Of a stretch of DNA of 64,000 bases, positions 39,265 to 49,977 are shown in pieces; the first letter of the stretch is position 1, and the number at the start of each line of letters is the position of its first letter. Origin of the DNA: Corynebacterium suicordis DSM 45110. GTDB taxonomy: Bacteria > Actinomycetota > Actinomycetes > Mycobacteriales > Mycobacteriaceae. Position numbers and translations under genes: made by a program. Under the pieces are notes generated by a model that was given only the letters and a program-made list of their open reading frames with translations, was not told where the DNA came from and did not search any database. The DNA is taken from NCBI RefSeq assembly GCF_015351405.1, contig NZ_JADKMY010000001.1, forward strand, positions 1-64,000, read 5' to 3'.

Positions 39265-39371
39265 GCCCCCGAGGGTAGCGGGTATTTCATCCGATATTTG
39301 CGTAGCTTCTACCTTAAGATCAGAGAACGCTCATAATAGAATTCTAAACATTGGAAACGGCAGTAGGAACT

Positions 39372-42053
39372 ATGATGAACACTGAATTAGATCCCAAAGA
39401 TCTTGATTATGTATATCAGGAGCTCGAAGAAAAACTTCGACTTGGCCTGAGCCTAAATGATGCTGAGCATGCACTAGCCCACCCAGCATCACCATGGGCG
39501 CAGCCTATACCAGCTGAATACATTGAGGCAGCAGTCAAAAGGTATAGCGCAGAAAACGACTTGCTTTATCAGCGAAATAATCTGGTTTCGATGGTGAACA
39601 CAGAGAAGCAAACCGGTCGTTGGTACTTGGGACCGAAAGAATCCGATAAGTACTGGCCGGTTGTAAGCGAATCGATCAGAGCGAAATTGGGGCCAACCGC
39701 CCTCGACTCCATCGACATAGCTTCAACTGAAATACTCGGATCTTTGCGCCCGCCAGGCGAATCGAACATTAATAGGCGCGGGCTAGTCCTTGGCTATGTG
39801 CAGAGTGGAAAAACCACTAACTTTCTTTCTCTTATCGCCAAAGCCGCGGACGTCGGGTACAAATTTTTCATTATTCTCACCGGAATTACGAACAATCTGC
39901 GAAAACAAACCCAAGTTCGCATCGAGCAAGATCTCATAAATGTCACTCCTCAATGGCACAATCTCACTAGTGCTGATCAAGATTTCAGTAACGTTCATGC
40001 TCGCAATGCCAGCACCCTATTGTCTACCACCGAAAACCGAGTGATCGCGGTGGTCAAAAAGAACGGAACGGTTCTCAAAAAACTCAATCATTTCTTGATC
40101 AGCGGGGAAATGGCAGCTAAGAATTGCCCCATCCTCATTATTGATGACGAAGCTGACCAAGCATCAATTAATATCAGTAACCGCGCGAAGAACGAACAAT
40201 CTACAATCAATGCGCAAATCCGGAGGCTTGTGAGTCTTCCAAAAGTTGCTTATGTCGCATACACCGCAACGCCGTTTGCAAATATTCTGATTAATCCGAA
40301 TGACCTTGAGGATCTTTATCCCAGAGATTTCATCCATGTATTACCGAAACCAGACGGATACTTTGGAACCGAATCTATTTTCGGGCGTGAATTACTCTCC
40401 GGAGAATCTGATGAAGAGGTGGATGACGGTCTGCCTATCACGCGAACTATCCCAGCTGAAGAGTCAAAAGCTCTACAACCGAGCGCACGATCACCTCAGG
40501 ATGAATGGGACCTTTATGTTCCGGAAAGCCTCTGTGACGCAATCAACTGGTTCATTCTTGCTTCGGCCGCTCGGCTTTCGCGTGGTCAAGGTAACAAGCA
40601 CAGTTCAATGCTCGTACACACTTCCGTCCGAACTGTTGTTCATGAAAATACCGCTAAACTTATTCGTGAAGTTTTAGATCGCACCACAAAAGATTTCGAA
40701 AGCGGTGCAAACCATTCGAAATTCCAAGAAATTTGGGAAAACGAGTCAAATGCTGTCGATCCGGATCTATTTGGGCTGCAACCCGCGGTCTTTGACGATG
40801 TAAAATCCCACATCAGCTCTGTACTCAACGCCATCCAGGTTGTCACGGACAATCAAAAGTCGACCGAGCGGCTCGCGTACCGTGATGATGCGCCAAACAC
40901 GGTCATTGCAGTCGGTGGAAATACCTTGGCCCGCGGACTCACTCTGGAGGGGTTGTCAGTCAGTTACTTTGTCCGAAATTCAAGCGCGTACGATACGTTG
41001 TTGCAGATGGGACGCTGGTTTGGTTTCCGATTTGGATATGCGGACCTCACTCGGATTTGGATGACCGACGAATTGCTTTCTTGGTTCCGGGATTTGGCTG
41101 GAGTCGAAGCAGACCTGCGCCAAGAACTTGCCCAGTATGCAAGTGGAAACATCACCCCCATGGATTACCAAGCAAAGATTAGGACTAGCCCCTACTTGGA
41201 AATCACCAGTCGAGCAAAGGCCCAGGAAGTCCGAGAAGTTAGCCTCTCGTTTAGCGGACAGCGCGTCCAAACCATTCTTTTCCACCATAAGAATGAGGAA
41301 TGGCTAGCGCAGAACCTCGAGGCTGCTCGTGGACTTTCAGCACAAATTCTCCAGTCCGGCGCACCAACTTTGTCGAAGAAGAATGGCACTCAAGTTTTCC
41401 GCAGCGTCAGTACCGACATCATTCTCGACTTTCTAGACACTTACCAGTTCCACGAAGATTCCGTGATTGGGCGTGATGCCGGGAAGAAGATGGCAGGCTA
41501 TATTCAAGGTGAAAAGGAGGGGTCGATTCGAGAATGGAGCGTATCGTTCTTTGGCCGAACTGATACCGAAGGACTCAATACTATAGACATTGGGCTATCT
41601 AACGCACTTGGATTGATTCGGCGCACGCAAACACGTGATTCTGGGCAGACAGCCAACATCAAAAGCTTGGTCGGTTCTCTCGACAGATTGAACGATTTCA
41701 ACAAGACCCCTGAGATTGAAAACCAGCTGAAGGAAGACATTGCCAACAGCTCGGCAAGCCGGGAAAGCATCCTGATTGACTACCACGAAAATCATGTCGG
41801 CCAAGACGTCGGCCACATTGCGATTTACGCCATTGACAAGGATTCCTCCACGACCTCCTCCAACCGCAAGGATCTAGAAGCCGTTGATCATATGATTGGA
41901 GTTGGTATCTTCTTCCCTCGCGCTGCAAAGGTTGAGCATACCTTTGACTATGTGAGCGCTCTCCAACCAGATGAAGAGCTAATGGATATCTACGCCGAGC
42001 AAGAGGAAGAGCAGCATGAACTCTTTCTCCAAGAGGAAAACGCTAGTGAATAG
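39372..42053 (+). CDS. Z1-domain SF2 helicase-like ATPase
   Basis: An 893-residue protein, first gene of the island operon. It has Walker A GYVQSGKT (about residues 141-148), Walker B IIDDEAD (256-262) and a motif III-like YTATPFAN (297-304). The Z1 signature of the second RecA-like half is NTLARGLTLEG (517-527), then QMGRWFGFR (545-553) with the arginine-finger region. Z1 proteins occur beside MutL-like ATPases and 5mC methyltransferases in predicted anti-phage systems; the helicase or translocase function is inferred. The C-terminal 300 residues are unassigned and end in an acidic Glu/Gln run. ATG at 39372 (or 39375) follows AGGA; an upstream TTG at 39351 has no ribosome site. Confidence 0.88.
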   Translation: MMNTELDPKDLDYVYQELEEKLRLGLSLNDAEHALAHPASPWAQPIPAEYIEAAVKRYSAENDLLYQRNNLVSMVNTEKQTGRWYLGPKESDKYWPVVSESIRAKLGPTALDSIDIASTEILGSLRPPGESNINRRGLVLGYVQSGKTTNFLSLIAKAADVGYKFFIILTGITNNLRKQTQVRIEQDLINVTPQWHNLTSADQDFSNVHARNASTLLSTTENRVIAVVKKNGTVLKKLNHFLISGEMAAKNCPILIIDDEADQASINISNRAKNEQSTINAQIRRLVSLPKVAYVAYTATPFANILINPNDLEDLYPRDFIHVLPKPDGYFGTESIFGRELLSGESDEEVDDGLPITRTIPAEESKALQPSARSPQDEWDLYVPESLCDAINWFILASAARLSRGQGNKHSSMLVHTSVRTVVHENTAKLIREVLDRTTKDFESGANHSKFQEIWENESNAVDPDLFGLQPAVFDDVKSHISSVLNAIQVVTDNQKSTERLAYRDDAPNTVIAVGGNTLARGLTLEGLSVSYFVRNSSAYDTLLQMGRWFGFRFGYADLTRIWMTDELLSWFRDLAGVEADLRQELAQYASGNITPMDYQAKIRTSPYLEITSRAKAQEVREVSLSFSGQRVQTILFHHKNEEWLAQNLEAARGLSAQILQSGAPTLSKKNGTQVFRSVSTDIILDFLDTYQFHEDSVIGRDAGKKMAGYIQGEKEGSIREWSVSFFGRTDTEGLNTIDIGLSNALGLIRRTQTRDSGQTANIKSLVGSLDRLNDFNKTPEIENQLKEDIANSSASRESILIDYHENHVGQDVGHIAIYAIDKDSSTTSSNRKDLEAVDHMIGVGIFFPRAAKVEHTFDYVSALQPDEELMDIYAEQEEEQHELFLQEENASE

Positions 42054-43050
42054 AATCCCGAAAAGTTCACAGTTTTTCAGTGAGATCCGTGAGCAAACGC
42101 TACACGGAAATTACCAGGGTGAAACCCAGCTCCGATTAGGTTTGTATTTTCCGAACGGCGAGCTAAGGGCATTTTTCGATTCTGAAAAAAACAGTATTGG
42201 TTTAGTGATCCCTGTCGATGAGCGCGTCTACTCAAATCTGCGCAACGATACACGGAGTAAAGCTATACAAATTATTCGGCTACGCTCCGATGGAAAACCA
42301 ACAATAAGACTCGCACTGCACAGTTTGAAATTTTCAAGCATTTTCTACATATTTGTAGACGAGTACATGCATGACGTAGTCAGTTCAGGCTCCATTGAAG
42401 CAGACCATGTCTTCTTAATGCTGCACAAATGGAGACAGCTTTTCGAAAAGAATTTTCCCACCGAGCGTCGCTTGAGTCCAGAAGAACAAATGGGTTTGCT
42501 CTGCGAACTAGAAGTCTTACTCAAACTAGTCGAACTTAATGGCCCAGCCGCACTAGAGTATTGGGTTGGTCCGAACCGCTCGCCTCATGATTTTGAACTC
42601 GATTCCAAATCGCTAGAGTGTAAAGCCACCGGCAGCTCGAACGAGCTGCGCATCAAAATACACGGCGCGAAACAGCTGGAGCGCCTCAGCGAGAAAGCCT
42701 TATTGCTAGTAGTTCGACGATATCGGCTTGACCCGTCAGGCACGTTTTCATTGCCGATCGCATTCGACTTATTGCAGCAACGACTACCTTCGCACATCGA
42801 TAGACTCATTGAGAAATTTCAAGATTTGGAATACCCCATTCCCGACGGGTTCTCTTCCGAGTTTTTAAATTTCACCCCCTTAGAAGCTTTCGAATTTGAA
42901 GTAGTTGAAGATTTCCCGCGTGTGAAAGGTGCCAACATAGACAGTCGTATTAAGCAGTTGAGCTATGTTCTAGAACTCTCTTCACCCGAAAGCATCCCAG
43001 GTTATAAGAAGCATGTTGATCACATTTCAGAAAGCGATCTGAACCGATGA
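42016..43050 (+). CDS. PD-(D/E)XK motif nuclease-like protein
   Basis: A 344-residue protein. The nuclease signature is visible at about residues 187-205: SPHDFEL, then SLECKAT, that is an Asp after a Pro-His pair and a Glu-Cys-Lys, matching the PD-(D/E)XK motif family associated with Z1 operons. The upstream helix has a candidate extra Glu in LLCELEVLLKL. It probably supplies DNA cleavage. The ATG at 42016 has an AGAGGAAG ribosome site and overlaps the Z1 gene by 38 bases; a GTG at 42046 would reduce this to eight. Its end overlaps the next start as ATGA. Confidence 0.82.
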   Translation: MNSFSKRKTLVNRIPKSSQFFSEIREQTLHGNYQGETQLRLGLYFPNGELRAFFDSEKNSIGLVIPVDERVYSNLRNDTRSKAIQIIRLRSDGKPTIRLALHSLKFSSIFYIFVDEYMHDVVSSGSIEADHVFLMLHKWRQLFEKNFPTERRLSPEEQMGLLCELEVLLKLVELNGPAALEYWVGPNRSPHDFELDSKSLECKATGSSNELRIKIHGAKQLERLSEKALLLVVRRYRLDPSGTFSLPIAFDLLQQRLPSHIDRLIEKFQDLEYPIPDGFSSEFLNFTPLEAFEFEVVEDFPRVKGANIDSRIKQLSYVLELSSPESIPGYKKHVDHISESDLNR

Positions 43051-44987
43051 GTCTTTTCCATCACAAGCAGCCAATCTCCGCGCAGGGGGCAACGTACGCC
43101 AACTCGTTCACCCAGACAATGAAGGGTCAATCCCTCGATATTTGGGATATGTTCACTCGCGAGTCTCTACAAAATAGCTGGGACGCAAGAGACAGAACGT
43201 CCGACGAAGACGGCGTTTCTTTTCAGATCAACTTCACTGAGCTCAATCCGAACGAAATAGCCGTCCTCCGGAACGAAATTTTTGGTTCTTCGACTCTTGG
43301 CCTAGAAAGACTTGGGACTGCGCTCAAGCGCGATTCAATGAGCCTACTACTTGTTTCAGACTCAGGTACGAACGGTCTTCGCGGGCCGTCGACTGCCGCG
43401 TCATCGTCTGATGGCGCGGCAGACTTTGTATCTTTTGTTCGAAATATTGGACGGAGCAACTCCAAGGAACTAGCCGGCGGAACATATGGGTTCGGCAAAG
43501 GCGTTTTCTTCATCATTAGCGAAGTAAGTACGGTGCTCGTTTATACTCGCACCACAGATGAAATTGGCCAGCCAGTGAATAGATTCATTGCCATGGCCAA
43601 CGGGGATAGCTTTGATATCGACAACGTCCCCTATACCGGACGGCATTGGTGGGGTTTGCGCAAGATCGAGCGATCTCAAGCAAACATTACTGAATACGCA
43701 GATCCACTTACAGGGGATGCAGCCGACTCTCTCGCTTCGATACTGGGAATGTCCGACCATTTTTCAGAAGAACGCCCCACCGGCACCTGCATCGCTGTGT
43801 TGAATCCGAATTTTAATGAGACGCCTGAGCAAGGTTTAACGTCGATTGCTCGCTCACTGACGCGATGGGCTTGGCCGCATATGATTCCTGTTGAAACTGG
43901 AATGGACCCTATTGATTTTAGCGTCACTTGCAACGGGGAGGATATAGAGATTCCAAATCCTCTTGAAGACCCAGCGCTCAAGCACTTCGTAGACATGTAC
44001 GAGGAAGCACTCGAGATAGAGCTGGGCTCTTCTCAAAATGTATGGACCTCAACGTTTCGACACCGGGTTGCCGAAGTGTTTACTGAGAGGCCCAAGAAGA
44101 AGAAGCTTGGGAACCTCGCAGTCATTAACCTAGCGAAGGCTATCCCAGAAGATAAAACAGTAATCGGCAAAGAGATTTCCAACCATATTGCGACGATGCG
44201 AAACCCTCGAATGGTCGTTGAATATTATAAGGGCCCTCGACCGCTGAGTGGCGCGAACTATTGTGGAGTGTTCATCGCGGATCCCGATGCAGACGAAGTC
44301 TTCGCGCGAAGTGAACCTGCCGCCCACCACGAGTGGAATCACCAAACTTCATCCCATGACCCCAACGTCTTAGAACGCTTCTGGGGTGCTAACGCAAAGA
44401 CTAGATCAAATCCTGTTCGGGTATTTTTTACTCGTTTGAAATCACTCCTTTCAGACGAAGGCAGAAATGGAAATTCAACGAGCGATGCAGAAAATTTCGC
44501 ATCTTTAACCAGACTGTCCTCTCGCCTCGGCTCTTCAATTGCTAACGCCCGAGGTGGCACTGACCTCCGCACCCCTCGAACCAAACCAGCTCTTTCAGGC
44601 GCCAAACCTCCAGCACTCTCCGGCTCAAAACCTAATGTGCAAGCACGCTTAATTGCACTTAAACGGGCAGGTGACAATATTGAAGCAACGTTCAACTGCG
44701 AGATCTCTGTTCCCACGGGTGGTTCAAATTATCGGGTCTTCCCTCGCCCATATCTCGACTCTGACCGCGGAAAGATTAGTGCAAAAGAATTGATTGAAGC
44801 TGGGCTGCAGGCACCGGAATTCTTGGGATGGGAAGATTCACAAACTGCTCATCGCTTGATGGATTTAACTTTTGCTCCGGGAAAACACGAAGTTTCAGCC
44901 TGTTTCTTACAGCCAGCCAACTCGGCTCTCGGCGTCACGTTCGACTTTGAAATTGCCCCGCAGGAGATGGAGAACCAAGATGTCTAA
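43047..44987 (+). CDS. GHKL-fold (Hsp90/MutL-type) ATPase, large
   Basis: A 646-residue protein. Three Bergerat ATP-binding motifs can be read: an N-box RESLQNSWDA (residues 38-47), a DxG motif SDSGTNGL (104-111) and a Gly-rich lid GTYGFGKG (145-152). The remaining 450 residues have no recognised domain; a Ser/Lys/Pro-rich hinge with repeated ALSG units lies near residues 510-530 before a beta-rich C-terminus. The gene is tied by ATGA to the nuclease gene and overlaps the next gene by eight bases. A second GHKL ATPase in the same locus, besides the MutL-like one, is unusual. The function is probably an ATP-driven switch or clamp; the partner is unknown. Confidence 0.75.
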   Translation: MSLFHHKQPISAQGATYANSFTQTMKGQSLDIWDMFTRESLQNSWDARDRTSDEDGVSFQINFTELNPNEIAVLRNEIFGSSTLGLERLGTALKRDSMSLLLVSDSGTNGLRGPSTAASSSDGAADFVSFVRNIGRSNSKELAGGTYGFGKGVFFIISEVSTVLVYTRTTDEIGQPVNRFIAMANGDSFDIDNVPYTGRHWWGLRKIERSQANITEYADPLTGDAADSLASILGMSDHFSEERPTGTCIAVLNPNFNETPEQGLTSIARSLTRWAWPHMIPVETGMDPIDFSVTCNGEDIEIPNPLEDPALKHFVDMYEEALEIELGSSQNVWTSTFRHRVAEVFTERPKKKKLGNLAVINLAKAIPEDKTVIGKEISNHIATMRNPRMVVEYYKGPRPLSGANYCGVFIADPDADEVFARSEPAAHHEWNHQTSSHDPNVLERFWGANAKTRSNPVRVFFTRLKSLLSDEGRNGNSTSDAENFASLTRLSSRLGSSIANARGGTDLRTPRTKPALSGAKPPALSGSKPNVQARLIALKRAGDNIEATFNCEISVPTGGSNYRVFPRPYLDSDRGKISAKELIEAGLQAPEFLGWEDSQTAHRLMDLTFAPGKHEVSACFLQPANSALGVTFDFEIAPQEMENQDV

Positions 44988-45873
44988 CCCGCTTAGTCTC
45001 GGATATCCATTACCTTCAGATAGCTGCTTCCACATTTCTAACTGGGATTTTTCAATCGATGGCGAGCACCTCGAAAAGAGAAATACCGACGAGCCATTCA
45101 GTTACTACAGTACAGTCGCCTGCACGTTGGGTCTCGAAGTAGAGCTTGAAGAGATTCGAAAACAATGCGGATTCTCAGACGTCGAACACACAGGCGTAGA
45201 ACTAGGAGTTGCACTCGTTTGGTTTTCAAGCGGGACCAAACAGCGTGGAAGTCAGATGATCAAGTCTTTGAAGGACGGGTTCAACGAGCTTCACCTAGAA
45301 CTCCCAGGAACTATCCTGGGTGGTGAGCTGGAAGTTCACGTGGTCGTCTTTCTCAAATCTGGAGCACGGGACACGAAAGATGCAATCACTGCCACTCTCC
45401 CAGGTTCGATCCTTTGGCAAAGCAACCGGCAATCGATAGCACTCGAAGGTGAGGGCGCCCGTTTCGCTATTGCCCCCTTGGACTTCAAGAAAGCGGGGAT
45501 CCACTCTCCGGATGCAATGTGGAGAGTAGAATTCACAGGGAGTCTATTCGCTCCTGCGCAAGCAGCGATATTGGTATACATCAACTCTGGAAACTCCATA
45601 TCCAAATTGATGCTTACTAAACCAGATAGCCGCGAGTCGATAATGTGGCACCAATTCTTAGAAGCAGATGTAATTAGCCAACTGCTGCTACACGGATCCA
45701 AGCATGCCTCCGATCTTAAGGATCTTACTGCCGAAGATGAAGGTTCACTAGGCGAGTCAATCAAATCACTTTTTGACAGCCTCTTCCCAGGTCAAGACCC
45801 TGAAAGTTTCAACGAACGGCCAAACGCCTTAACGGCTGCTGCTCAAGCTCTTGTATTTAGGAATGCACAATGA
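44980..45873 (+). CDS. Defence-island protein of unknown function
   Basis: A 297-residue soluble protein with alternating hydrophobic/charged strands suggesting a beta-rich N-terminal two thirds and a helical C-terminus. No family recognised. ATG at 44980 is chosen because GGAG lies seven bases upstream and the start nests in the previous stop (ATGTCTAA); a longer frame from 44872 would overlap the ATPase gene by over 100 bases. Its end overlaps the next start as ATGA. The strict coupling suggests that it is a stoichiometric subunit. Confidence 0.7.
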   Translation: MSNPLSLGYPLPSDSCFHISNWDFSIDGEHLEKRNTDEPFSYYSTVACTLGLEVELEEIRKQCGFSDVEHTGVELGVALVWFSSGTKQRGSQMIKSLKDGFNELHLELPGTILGGELEVHVVVFLKSGARDTKDAITATLPGSILWQSNRQSIALEGEGARFAIAPLDFKKAGIHSPDAMWRVEFTGSLFAPAQAAILVYINSGNSISKLMLTKPDSRESIMWHQFLEADVISQLLLHGSKHASDLKDLTAEDEGSLGESIKSLFDSLFPGQDPESFNERPNALTAAAQALVFRNAQ

Positions 45874-46649
45874 CACACATAGCGATTTACTACCCACGGT
45901 TAAGCAGAGCACACAGCTTAGCAATCATTCGCAAAATTCTGCCCTTGACTGTTCGTGAAACAACTAGCCACTGCGGAACTACTCATGAAATGCAGTATTT
46001 CTACGATCCTACGAAGGCAATTGACCACAAGGGTCTAGGTCCCGTCCGTCAACAAATCGTTGCCATGGCCACGACCCTAGGATTCCCAGATTTGCCAATT
46101 GCTGGCGCTCACAAGTCAGTTTTTGACCGGGCAGCCGCTGGAATTCTAGACGACGGTTTGTCGATTCTTCCTGCTGAAGCTGCCTCCGAAGACGTCTGGA
46201 ACTTCATCACGCTTGTACTCCTCCCCGACGTCGCTAAATGGCGGTACCCCAACAAGGACAAGAACCCTACTTATGAACGCTGGTTAGGGTCTGACCGAAA
46301 CGTGTTTAGGAAACTTTGGTGGCGGGAGGCGACATTGGGTCGAGAGCTCAGCAATCAGCTGGGTGAAGATCAAGTTGTAGCGATCATGGAACGGCCCCGG
46401 CTCGGCGGAAATGGAGACTTGGCTAGGGCTATTGCTAAGGCATACCTCCAGATGGCCGCAAGCTATGAATCTATTCCCCGCGAAAAGATCATGCGTATCG
46501 GTGCAATGAACGTTAGGCGCCGTGTGCCCTTCTTGGCCTTTGAGGTGCTGGACACTTCCCAATTGGAGCAATGCGTAGTCGATATCTTCGAAGAAGCCAC
46601 TTCGGCCTACAGCAACTTGCTCCGCCGAGAGGGCGCTACCACCGAGTAA
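45870..46649 (+). CDS. DUF6339-like protein
   Basis: A 259-residue soluble helical protein. A central segment, EDVWNFITLVLLPDVAKWRYP (about residues 108-128), followed by FRKLWWRE and RLGGNGDLARAIAKAY, fits my memory of the DUF6339 family, which recurs next to Z1 and PD-(D/E)XK genes. The biochemical role is unknown. It is the last of five overlapping genes; an 86-bp gap then separates it from the MutL-like gene. The assignment is from pattern memory only. Confidence 0.6.
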   Translation: MTHIAIYYPRLSRAHSLAIIRKILPLTVRETTSHCGTTHEMQYFYDPTKAIDHKGLGPVRQQIVAMATTLGFPDLPIAGAHKSVFDRAAAGILDDGLSILPAEAASEDVWNFITLVLLPDVAKWRYPNKDKNPTYERWLGSDRNVFRKLWWREATLGRELSNQLGEDQVVAIMERPRLGGNGDLARAIAKAYLQMAASYESIPREKIMRIGAMNVRRRVPFLAFEVLDTSQLEQCVVDIFEEATSAYSNLLRREGATTE

Positions 46650-46735
46650 CCCAATCGTTACCACTGCGGCCTGGTACCCTGAACAAGCCCTGCCGTGCCC
46701 TAGACCCATCGCTATAGAACGAGGCTCTGAATTCA

Positions 46736-48016
46736 ATGCGTAAGACCGTATCCGTGACCCCCTCTGCAAGACGTCTGACAAATTCACTACGGGACATCGG
46801 ATACAGCTTTGAATCAGCCATTGCCGATCTCGTCGACAACAGCATTGCCGCCGGCAGCAAGCAAATCGAGATTGAGATAGTTTTCTCGGGAGAAAAATCC
46901 CATGTTGTCATCATCGATGATGGCGATGGAATGAGCCCCGAAGAACTCAATGAAGCATTTCGATTCGGCAGTCAACGAACCTATCAGTCAGGTCAACTTG
47001 GTAGGTACGGCCTCGGCTTAAAAACCGCTTCGTTATCTCAATGCCGGCGACTAACAGTCTTTACCCGCGAAAAACGCAGTGGAACGAAGAGTGCGAATTG
47101 TTTGGATCTAGATTTCATCAATGAAACTGATAATTGGCTCATTACTGAACCTGAACCAGACCATAGAACGGAAGATATCCTCAAGCATCTATCCCCCAAT
47201 GGGACTGTCGTTTTGTGGGACAATCTAGACCGACTTCTTCCGTCGAATAATCCGTCCAGCACGTGGGCTCGGAAGAAATTTGAAACCCTTAGTTCTCGAT
47301 TGAAAACGCATCTGTCTGCTGTATTCCACCGCTTTCTATCAGGTGAAGGCGTCCCTCCAATCACTATCTCAATCAACGGCGTCAATCTACAACCTTGGGA
47401 TCCGTTTGCGCGTTCCGAATCGAAAACAGAACTTGTCACCACCGATAAGTTTGAAATAGACTCCCGATTCTCGTCTGGGCAAGTCGTCGTCAAGTCGTAT
47501 TGCCTACCGTCTAGGTCACAATTTTCCACCCAGGAAGCCTTCGAAGCCGCCGGAGGAATCCGGAAATGGAACCGCCAACAAGGACTCTATATTTACCGTG
47601 CAAATCGCTTGGTTCAATGGGGTGGTTGGGATTCAATCCGAACGCTTGATGAACACACCAAACTGGCACGAGTGTCTCTTGATTTCGGGACTGAGTTGGA
47701 TGACGAATTCAATATCAATGTCGCAAAAATGCGCGTCACCGTCCCTGCTTCACTGAAGAAGCTAATGTCTCGTTCAATTAGCGACGTCTGCGCCCGTGCG
47801 GATTCCCGGTACCGGAAAGATAAGAATTCGCGAGTTGCCGAACAACAGGAGTCAGAAGAAGTAACGTCGGCGCCCACAGGTTACGCACCCGGAGCGGAAG
47901 TTGGCTTAGCTCTCAAGTCAGCTGCTGCTAGGTCAGGTAATTTTTCCGCATTCAAAAAGATCGCTGAGCTACTGAAACAAGAGGACCCAGATTTGGCAAA
48001 ACTGCTGGGTCTCTAA
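46736..48016 (+). CDS. MutL-like GHKL ATPase
   Basis: A 426-residue ATPase with the Bergerat fold of MutL/MORC proteins. The N-box is SAIADLVDNS (Glu/Asp region, Asn35), G1 is DDGDGM (61-66) and the lid is GRYGLGLKTAS (89-99). After about residue 230 the sequence leaves typical MutL; there is no MutL nuclease motif, so it is closer to stand-alone defence ATPases. The gene follows the DUF6339 gene after 86 bp, with GAGG 11 bases before the ATG. Its stop overlaps the stop of the convergent methyltransferase gene by four bases. Confidence 0.88.
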   Translation: MRKTVSVTPSARRLTNSLRDIGYSFESAIADLVDNSIAAGSKQIEIEIVFSGEKSHVVIIDDGDGMSPEELNEAFRFGSQRTYQSGQLGRYGLGLKTASLSQCRRLTVFTREKRSGTKSANCLDLDFINETDNWLITEPEPDHRTEDILKHLSPNGTVVLWDNLDRLLPSNNPSSTWARKKFETLSSRLKTHLSAVFHRFLSGEGVPPITISINGVNLQPWDPFARSESKTELVTTDKFEIDSRFSSGQVVVKSYCLPSRSQFSTQEAFEAAGGIRKWNRQQGLYIYRANRLVQWGGWDSIRTLDEHTKLARVSLDFGTELDDEFNINVAKMRVTVPASLKKLMSRSISDVCARADSRYRKDKNSRVAEQQESEEVTSAPTGYAPGAEVGLALKSAAARSGNFSAFKKIAELLKQEDPDLAKLLGL

Positions 48017-49977
48017 GCAAATGGTAGAGCAACCTCATTTTCAGGCACGCCGAATCGATCGCACATGCTTGCGATAGGGCAGTCATGGCAATGAGGTCTT
48101 TCGATTCGGCAATGACTGATGGTCAGTTCCACTAGGCCAAGGTGAGCAGCACGAGAATTTTCGTTAAGCCCGAGCATCCTTGCTACGGATAGCCGGCCAT
48201 CCGTTTGGCGATTCCTGCGTTCTGAAGGCAAAGACTGGAACCGAGACGTTAGTCTAACGACACCAGTAGTCGCCAATACGGGCTCCTCAGACTTAGCTCC
48301 TTGCCCCAGACTAATGGGAGCAATTAACTCCACCATGGAAGCTTCGCTTGCGCGCAGAACTGGCAATTTAGATCGGTCGATCTTACTTTCCCAAAGTGCA
48401 GCCGGGGAGTCTCTTAATTGAGATGCAAAATCCATCAACCGATCAACCTTCTTAACCTCCCCAATGCCCGTGAGCATGTCAGCGAGAACTTCTACTGTGT
48501 CTTCAGGAACACTGGGCTGGTCTTGAGTTGGTTCTTCCATAGAATCGATCACCGGCCAGATTTGATCAATAATCGGTTTCCTAGAACGACTCAACAGCAT
48601 GACGCCGAGAGCAGCCTTCCATCGAGAGTCTGTCCACAACCACGGATTCAACCGAGCGTTCGCAGGTTTATCCCGGAACCATTTTGCGATTGAAGACGAT
48701 ATGTCCCTAGCCCCTTGAACTTTGGGTTTTTTCCTGTCCAAAGACTGCTTTACAGCTACGGAGATTGCAGCAGCAGCTCGAGGCGGAACTGCGTTCCCGA
48801 TTTGCTTAAATGCTGCGCTAGGTGGGCCGTTAAAACGAAAATCATCTGGGAAGGTCTGTATCCGGGCAGCCTCACGAACCGTGATAGTCCGAGGCTGCCG
48901 AGGGTGGATATATGAATAGCCATCTTTCGAAATGTGCGCGGTGATAGTCCGAGAGAGGTCGTCTTCTGAAAGTTTATTGTATTTGTCGTTATAGATATCA
49001 GTTCGATACCGACGGAGATGATCTGGAAGATCTGAATATTTAGTTGAGTCGTCCATCAGTTCGAATGCTTCTCGGTCATCCTCGCGTACTGGCCGAGTAA
49101 TGTGATCATATAGTTTGTGCTGGTCAGCTTTCGACACACGTCGTCTGATGTACTTCTGGAATCCGGTTTTAGGATGATCGTACTCAGTCCATCCTTGCGC
49201 GCCACCTTGTGGTCGCCATCCCCCTTCAACCTGCGGCATCTCGCCAATTGCATTCCACAGTGTTACTTTTTCTTGGAACTCAGCGGGCCAAGTGAATTCA
49301 TATCCATCACGAAATGCCACCAATATTAGTCGTTGACGAGTTTGCGGGACGCCATATTTCCACATTTCTATGACTTTTTCATATACAGAGTAACCGAGTT
49401 GCTCTAGTTCTTCGATCATGGATCGGAGAATGAACATTTCTTCATCTAAAGCCATGTCTGGAACATTTTCCATGATGATAGCTGCTGGCTTAGCTCGGCT
49501 TACAATCTCTAAATAAGAACGCCATAAATCTCTTCTCTGATCATGGGGTTCTCTCTGGCCTTTTTCAACCAGTTTTCGAATGCCATTTCTTCCGGCTTTT
49601 GAGAATGGCTGGCAAGGCGGGCCCCCTGCTAGAATCTCAATTTCACATTCATCCATCAATTCCGAGATTCGAACGATCGATTCTTCAGTGGATAGATCCC
49701 AATCTGCGGATAAACCTCCAAAATGGTGGCGGTGCGTTTTCACGGCTTCAAGGTAATGGTCCACTCCGAGAACTACTTTGAACCCCGCTTCTTCTAGCCC
49801 AAGAGAAATGCCTCCCGCCCCCGAGAAAAGATCCGCTGCAAGAGTAAACCCTTGCTTTTTCAGACCTTTGCAGTAACTCTTGAATTCATTCAAATCCCTG
49901 CAATGATCAGGATGCGGTTCAAGATCCAAAAACGGGCCCCGAATCTGTGTCACCGTGTAATCAGGTTGGGCGTTCAA
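48013..49977 (-). CDS. 5-methylcytosine methyltransferase fused to EndoIII-like Fe-S domain
   Basis: A 654-residue fusion. Residues 44-410 are a DNA (cytosine-5) methyltransferase: FSGAGG (51-56), PPCQPF with catalytic Cys122, MENV (169-172), QTRQR (212-216), a target-recognition region about 230-345, and QIGNAVPPR (392-400). Residues 425-645 resemble the HhH-GPD glycosylase fold of endonuclease III: VMLLSRSR (459-466), TGIGEVKK (503-510), a degenerate HhH near 537-550, and Cys623, Cys630, Cys633, Cys639 in exact C-X6-C-X2-C-X5-C spacing for a 4Fe-4S cluster. The positions of the catalytic Lys and Asp appear to be Ser544 and Thr570, so activity is doubtful. The start is TTG with GGAGGA just upstream. 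Confidence 0.87.
   Translation of the reverse strand: MNAQPDYTVTQIRGPFLDLEPHPDHCRDLNEFKSYCKGLKKQGFTLAADLFSGAGGISLGLEEAGFKVVLGVDHYLEAVKTHRHHFGGLSADWDLSTEESIVRISELMDECEIEILAGGPPCQPFSKAGRNGIRKLVEKGQREPHDQRRDLWRSYLEIVSRAKPAAIIMENVPDMALDEEMFILRSMIEELEQLGYSVYEKVIEMWKYGVPQTRQRLILVAFRDGYEFTWPAEFQEKVTLWNAIGEMPQVEGGWRPQGGAQGWTEYDHPKTGFQKYIRRRVSKADQHKLYDHITRPVREDDREAFELMDDSTKYSDLPDHLRRYRTDIYNDKYNKLSEDDLSRTITAHISKDGYSYIHPRQPRTITVREAARIQTFPDDFRFNGPPSAAFKQIGNAVPPRAAAAISVAVKQSLDRKKPKVQGARDISSSIAKWFRDKPANARLNPWLWTDSRWKAALGVMLLSRSRKPIIDQIWPVIDSMEEPTQDQPSVPEDTVEVLADMLTGIGEVKKVDRLMDFASQLRDSPAALWESKIDRSKLPVLRASEASMVELIAPISLGQGAKSEEPVLATTGVVRLTSRFQSLPSERRNRQTDGRLSVARMLGLNENSRAAHLGLVELTISHCRIERPHCHDCPIASMCDRFGVPENEVALPFA

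Follow-up and report, generated by a model that had tools for sequence, protein, structure and literature searches.

A Z1/DUF4420/GHKL island of Corynebacterium suicordis with a conserved five-gene core and an apparently separable methylase/MORC cassette: a candidate 5mC restriction-modification system

Described systems and the composition of the island

The protein families considered here, or a system built from them, have been predicted three times from gene neighborhoods (2008, 2017, and 2022). Iyer et al. (2008; PMC2292703) described the families in MORC and paraMORC operons and predicted a role in restriction-modification. In Corynebacterium diphtheriae BH8, an island (CDBH8_0988-0994) encoding Z1 and DUF4420 proteins, a Dcm-like methylase, and three unclassified proteins has replaced a PLD-nuclease SF2 helicase gene (pfam11907) and a MutT-like gene, and Puigbo et al. 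(2017; PMC5379612) left open whether this island is one system. Miller, Stern, and Burstein (2022; PMC9523054) predicted a defense system whose Type I, according to the main text, is widely distributed, comprises a Z1 protein of ~925 residues, a PD-(D/E)XK protein (DUF4420, printed as DUF4220), a cytosine methylase, and three further genes, and is associated with DNA repair endonucleases; only Type II was likened there to the MZA system. In CglI and NgoAVII, which include a 5mC methylase, a Z1/DEAD ATPase is required for NTP-dependent cleavage by a separate nuclease (PMC4267653). We found no experimental work on the system described below in the searchable literature, which omits most subscription journals.

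The window, i.e., the whole 64,000-nucleotide stretch of C. suicordis DNA that was analyzed, contains a seven-gene island at positions 39372 to 49977, with six open reading frames on the plus strand and one on the minus strand. The plus-strand genes encode Z1, an SF2 (DEAD-like) ATPase with a Z1 domain (893 residues; 39372 to 42053; Pfam Z1, E = 1e-71); a DUF4420/PD-(D/E)XK nuclease resembling MzaD (344 residues; 42016 to 43050; Pfam DUF4420, E = 3e-37); GHKLa, a paraMORC2-type GHKL ATPase (646 residues; 43047 to 44987); X, a 297-residue protein with no known family (44980 to 45873); D6339, an all-helical protein of the DUF6339 family (259 residues; 45870 to 46649); and GHKLb, a prokaryotic MORC ATPase resembling MzaB (426 residues; 46736 to 48016). 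The minus-strand gene encodes MT, a 5mC methyltransferase fused to a MutY-like domain (654 residues; 48013 to 49977; DNA_methylase, E = 4e-61). The Z1 and DUF4420 genes overlap by 38 bp (42016 to 42053), and the next three overlaps are of 4 bp (DUF4420/GHKLa), 8 bp (GHKLa/X), and 4 bp (X/D6339). A gap of 86 bp (46649 to 46736) precedes the GHKLb gene, which is convergent with the MT gene, their stop codons overlapping at 48013 to 48016. The GC content is 0.46 to 0.53 in the island (39 to 50 kb) versus 0.53 to 0.66, mostly 0.57 to 0.64, in the rest of the window. Ahead of the operon lies a weak promoter-like site (TTAAGA-17-TAGAAT; 39314 to 39342, plus strand), in a region that has fewer such sites than shuffled sequences. 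This layout is the one given by an earlier sequence-only reading of the same DNA (five overlapping genes, a sixth after 86 bp, and a convergent 5mC methylase in a low-GC block). Its assignments of Z1, of two GHKL ATPases, and of the methylase also hold, based on Pfam matches and, for GHKLa, on conserved motifs.

Comparison with Type I of Miller et al. revealed the same stated composition. The combination of Z1, PD-(D/E)XK (DUF4420), and cytosine methylase is present, and the agreement extends to the number of genes, the three further ones being unnamed in the main text. The association with repair endonucleases is found among relatives of the island (see below), though not in this window. The main text mentions no cassette combining MORC with a MutY-fused methylase, and MORC is mentioned there for Type II. 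Type I anticipates in part, by its stated composition, the novelty that the sequence-only reading had claimed for this gene set. The operons of Iyer et al. share with the island and its relatives an SF2 helicase with the motif DThhQXuRhFG, an E-D-ExK nuclease, paraMORC2 and MORC GHKL ATPases, a cytosine methylase, and Vsr; in the part of that article available to us, X and DUF6339 are unnamed and the MutY-like fusion is undescribed. The C. diphtheriae BH8 island, compared by description only, additionally encodes an EcoRII-like enzyme and an HTH-containing methylase. CglI and NgoAVII have in common with the island a Z1/DEAD ATPase, a separate nuclease, and a 5mC methylase; they differ in that their nuclease combines PLD and B3 domains, whereas that of the island is a DUF4420 PD-(D/E)XK protein accompanied by the GHKL, X, and DUF6339 proteins. 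The core proteins of DISARM and BREX were not found; matches were limited to MT, with generic methylase models that include DrmMII.

The relationship with MZA is one of homologous subunits. Z1, DUF4420, and GHKLb are homologous to MzaC, MzaD, and MzaB, respectively (E = 3e-119 for the MzaC-like match of Z1 and 6e-70 for the MzaB-like match of GHKLb), in agreement with the earlier description of a conserved multigene system related to MZA. The equivalog scores are far below the cutoffs (MzaB, 236 for a cutoff of 850 bits; MzaC, 399 for 1500; MzaD, 71 for 420), and the earlier proposal of a relative or new subtype of MZA that gains a PD-(D/E)XK protein is not supported. The PD-(D/E)XK gene is no addition to MZA, since MzaD belongs to that family. 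The island is not MZA, from which it differs by the absence of AIPR (MzaE) and MzaA and by the presence of a second GHKL ATPase, X, DUF6339, and a methylase. No match to AIPR was detected among the seven proteins, and this copy has no Vsr gene in the window, both as the earlier reading had stated. The MzaA model (NF041931) matched only two loci in the same genome, ~1.1 Mb away and below the cutoff. Besides these matches, near 1.13 Mb, the model responds in 10 of 14 control genomes, a pattern that would fit sigma factors, as mzaA is called in the main text of PMC9523054.

The PADLOC set PDC-M33 (A, B, and C) is a triad without Z1 and DUF4420, in which the genes for a GHKL protein, a middle protein, and a DUF6339-like protein are ordered as in the island and encode products of similar size. 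GHKLa matched PDC-M33A over the GHKL domain only (E = 9e-14), some D6339 orthologues matched M33C, and X did not match M33B (hhalign probability, 2%). Two distant loci (L035 and L036) matched all three models. In L035 (7728 to 15435), the PDC-M33 triad is convergent with a gene set that encodes a 5mC methylase together with a helicase containing Z1 and an endonuclease, the latter two being classed as Type II by PADLOC. Altogether, the island is a variant of an already predicted kind of system; the new elements, described below, are the cassette, the probable replacement of the core as a block, and the association of DUF6339 with the cassette.

The five-gene core

Scanning genomes with the single GHKLa protein of the window found no relatives, whereas an alignment-based search of 84,980 species genomes found 298, and 80 of these loci were retrieved. 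A survey of 200 other Corynebacterium genomes added 14 loci containing the core, and 90 loci remained after duplicates and the two distant loci L035 and L036 were dropped. All five core genes (Z1, DUF4420, GHKLa, X, and D6339) were found in one order and on one strand in 87 of the 90 loci. The exceptions were L044 (DUF4420 undetected), L056 (a long overlapping frame, for which the order was flagged), and L108 (end of the contig). Since loci were recovered via GHKLa, conservation of this gene is by construction, which does not apply to the four others. The fixed order, new in this analysis, excludes chance assembly of the core and answers the possibility, raised by the sequence-only reading, that co-occurrence of the genes might not be conserved. 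The loci originate from Actinomycetota, Chloroflexota, and Pseudomonadota. Sets encoding GHKL, X, and DUF6339 were also found on plasmids of Agrobacterium, Synechococcus, and Halobaculum; searches of phage records and of viral contigs, at the sensitivity chosen, yielded no relative of GHKLa.

A 5mC methylase gene adjoins the core in 85 of the 90 loci. An ORF with the Vsr motif GCFWH does so in 59, being absent from this copy and from some relatives, and Vsr ranks first or second among Pfam families by frequency in the tallied flanks. Three loci (L025, L027, and L039) contain a full core and no methylase in the stretch examined, indicating either that the methylase lies further away or that a linked methylase is not obligatory. 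Together with L024, they form a group of four related Corynebacterium cores without the cassette, and in the three of these that were tested a ParA-like ATPase gene follows the DUF6339 gene. L063 contains, close to the first set and on the opposite strand, a further Z1-DUF4420-GHKL set of a different type.

The active-site residues of the core enzymes are preserved. The Z1 motifs QSGKT, DDEAD, and DTLLQMGRWFG are invariant or nearly so in 91 sequences, the DThhQXuRhFG motif of Iyer et al. being present in 89 of them, and Z1 is predicted to be a probable DNA translocase. In DUF4420, residues E164, D192, and E201-x-K203, which correspond to the E-D-ExK signature of Iyer et al., are conserved in 100% of 89 sequences. 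GHKLa has no Pfam match; in 89 sequences, it retains the motifs ExxxN, DxGT, and GxGK and an ExxxH signature (E423-H427) whose E and H positions are 100% conserved. According to the part of PMC2292703 available to us, ExxxH is the defining signature of paraMORC2. In two species, GHKLa is split, into two pieces ~1.4 kb apart in L031 (6947 to 10307) and into two overlapping frames in L034 (7284 to 9171).

The two remaining core proteins are less readily assigned. X matched no family at the curated cutoffs of the profile libraries. Its AlphaFold2 model (pLDDT, 90.8; pTM, 0.72) combines a β-rich N-terminal part with a helical C-terminal part, and searches with this model returned no PDB fold match at E ≤ 0.001 and only two weak BFVD matches among viral folds. 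Sequence-profile searches of the PDB were negative for both GHKLa and X. The DUF6339-like assignment made previously is weak for the protein of the window alone (E = 0.11) and holds via its orthologues, which match DUF6339 above the Pfam cutoff (E = 3e-14 to 5e-5). The D6339 model is all-helical (pLDDT, 95.6) and has no fold match in the PDB.

The methylase/MORC cassette and probable exchange of the core

GHKLb matched HATPase_c_3 (E = 7e-35) and carries the S5-domain motif of MORC proteins (GhXhhpXXRhl; GLYIYRANRLV in the window), which was present in 27 of 27 GHKLb sequences versus 1 of 89 GHKLa sequences. The catalytic 5mC domain and target-recognition region of MT (residues 46 to 405; 48763 to 49842, minus strand) have intact PCQPFS, ENV, and QRQR-region motifs. 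A GHKLb gene accompanied the MutY-fused methylase in 26 of 26 loci and was found in none of the 63 loci lacking the fusion (Fisher P = 5e-23, not corrected for relatedness). The pair is found on either side of the core and in both orientations. In a search for standalone cassettes among 200 Corynebacterium genomes, close GHKLb relatives were found only in the nine genomes that have the core. Together, these sequence comparisons point to the MORC-type ATPase and the MutY-fused methylase being one cassette separable from the core, a unit that is new here. The single seven-gene unit implied by the sequence-only reading gives way to a five-gene core and this cassette. The target-recognition region and the catalytic part of the 26 cassette methylases are equally conserved (mean identity of 68% for each), and these methylases therefore probably belong to one specificity class. 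In the other methylases, the corresponding values are 26% and 36%.

The C-terminal partner of the methylase, previously noted only as a fusion, can now be assigned as a MutY-like (HhH-GPD) iron-sulfur domain (residues 425 to 640; 48058 to 48705, minus strand). A profile of 26 sequences matched PDB structures of MutY (E = 2e-15, over almost the full domain) and 1kea, a G-T mismatch enzyme (E = 2e-13). The four cysteines of the iron-sulfur cluster are 96 to 100% conserved. The position of the catalytic Asp is mostly occupied by T, A, or N, with no Asp nearby in any of 27 sequences, and MutY-type glycosylase activity is therefore not expected. Replacement of Vsr by the fusion was considered and rejected, the Asp being lost and the Vsr motif being present in 22 of the 26 fusion loci as well.

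The trees of core and cassette are incongruent: the window clusters with L021 and L022 in that of the core and with L030 and L029 in that of the cassette. Approximately unbiased (AU) tests rejected the opposite groupings (P = 2.5e-5, 1.7e-7, and 1.2e-5), with P values that are somewhat optimistic, as the groups were picked after the identities had been seen. In a related species (G010; loci L030 and L192), the island occupies the same chromosomal site, with flanking genes 71 to 86% identical to those of the window except for one (43%). The methylase (74%) and GHKLb (65%) are similarly conserved, whereas the five core proteins are just 25 to 42% identical. This difference, which affects all of the core proteins, suggests that the core was probably replaced en bloc beside an inherited cassette, the simplest reading and one that is new here; independent arrival of the two islands at the same site is less likely. 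The pair formed by the window and G010, with different cores and an orthologous methylase, allows asking where specificity lies in a multisubunit restriction system.

The chromosomal site of the island is variable between relatives. In G015 (L184, 5336 to 8793), genes for a DUF3427/PLD-like helicase and a NUDIX protein lie between the same flanking genes, YbjQ and Sir2; this pair is of the kind reported as displaced in C. diphtheriae BH8. In G017 (L185, 7090 to 8406), a Fic-family gene is next to Sir2 in the corresponding place.

Proposed function and the DUF6339 protein

We lean, with modest confidence, toward the prediction that the island encodes an ATP-dependent multisubunit 5mC restriction-modification system directed against foreign DNA. 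This reading is favored because the active-site residues of Z1, of the nuclease, and of both GHKL ATPases are invariant or nearly so, because a 5mC methylase adjoins nearly all of the cores, and because the motif of Vsr, the repair partner of 5mC methylases, is found beside most of them. Further reasons are that NTP-dependent cleavage by CglI and NgoAVII is powered by Z1/DEAD ATPases, that restriction-modification (2008) and putative defense (2022) are the roles previously assigned to these families, and that the chromosomal site varies, with a helicase/NUDIX pair in one relative and a Fic gene in another. The three cores without a methylase, the lack of a recognizable target-recognition domain among the core proteins, and the lack of any match suggesting DNA binding for X and DUF6339 in the PDB fold search (and, for X, in the viral one) count against it. 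In such a system, the methylase would mark one sequence in the host genome; marking of self DNA, as the sequence-only reading had proposed, is plausible. On incoming DNA, an ATP-gated complex of GHKLa, X, and DUF6339 would then form at unmarked sites, and its DUF6339 subunit would make contact with the methylase side. By analogy with CglI, Z1 would translocate on the DNA, and the DUF4420 PD-(D/E)XK protein would cut it. The cassette is proposed to add the MORC ATPase as a DNA clamp and a MutY-like domain that reads DNA instead of repairing it, which would amount to reuse of a repair enzyme fold in defense.

Alternatively, in the manner of Type IV systems, the core could attack methylated or wrongly methylated DNA, the methylase/MORC cassette controlling the core rather than providing classical host protection. 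The core works beside methylases whose target-recognition regions are diverse (26% identity outside the cassette), and its apparent replacement beside a conserved methylase suggests that it may not read a fixed motif. We nevertheless consider this reading unlikely, since near-universal linkage to a methylase (85 of 90 loci) is a better fit to self protection and since a methylation-targeting nuclease would be harmful beside an active 5mC methylase. Abortive infection or growth arrest as in MZA, with phage sensing by GHKL and Z1 proteins and an effector that harms the cell, is rather unlikely despite the homology to MzaB, MzaC, and MzaD; AIPR and MzaA are missing, the MZA models score far below their cutoffs, and no toxin-like subunit was recognized among the proteins of the island. 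Quite improbable is a main role in repair, or in maintenance of methylation, in response to 5mC deamination. The two MutL-family ATPases, the MutY-like fusion, and the Vsr motif beside many cores would suit such a role; against it, the catalytic Asp is missing from all 27 MutY-like sequences, coexistence with Vsr in most fusion loci indicates that the fusion is no Vsr substitute, and the distribution is patchy, in a variable site. Finally, that unrelated defense genes merely lie side by side, which the differing histories of the methylase side and the core might suggest, is very improbable and is strongly disfavored for the core by the census (overlapping genes whose order is kept in 87 of 90 loci from several phyla); it would apply, if at all, only to the cassette.

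For the restriction-modification system that we favor, the comparison yields testable parts, namely, a core of five genes in fixed order, a methylase/MORC cassette that can be separated from it, and a candidate contact protein. With the other four core proteins as the yardstick, D6339 proteins of cassette-bearing loci are more alike than expected, by 3.8 identity points (0 of 1,000 permutations, P < 0.001, also with labels permuted by cluster), and D6339 is the sole core protein that tracks the presence of the cassette. The effect is limited in the D6339 tree, where label changes are only slightly fewer (5 versus 6 to 7). Positional hitchhiking was rejected as the cause, as the effect holds with the cassette upstream of Z1. 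X, also considered as the subunit following the methylase class, showed no class effect and was rejected. The effect is confined to the contrast between cassette and no cassette; D6339 does not follow methylase identity in general (partial r = -0.25 among non-cassette methylases), and it is Z1 that tracked methylase identity in that group (r = 0.36, P = 0.007), a correlation left unexplained. Based on these comparisons, D6339 is proposed to link the core to the cassette, an association that is new here and is not established as a link to sequence specificity. A more specific version of the model would consist of interchangeable blocks, in which a core devoid of its own target specificity takes it from the methylase cassette via DUF6339 and can be swapped beside the same methylase, the cassette here contributing a MORC ATPase and, as a reader of DNA, a MutY-like domain derived from a repair enzyme; we regard this version as possible, although doubtful. 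In 17 loci, mostly from Streptomyces (L084, L110, and 15 others), D6339 is fused to a 5mC methylase. Another methylase was found alongside the fusion in the census, and the two enzymes could reflect an asymmetric target site.
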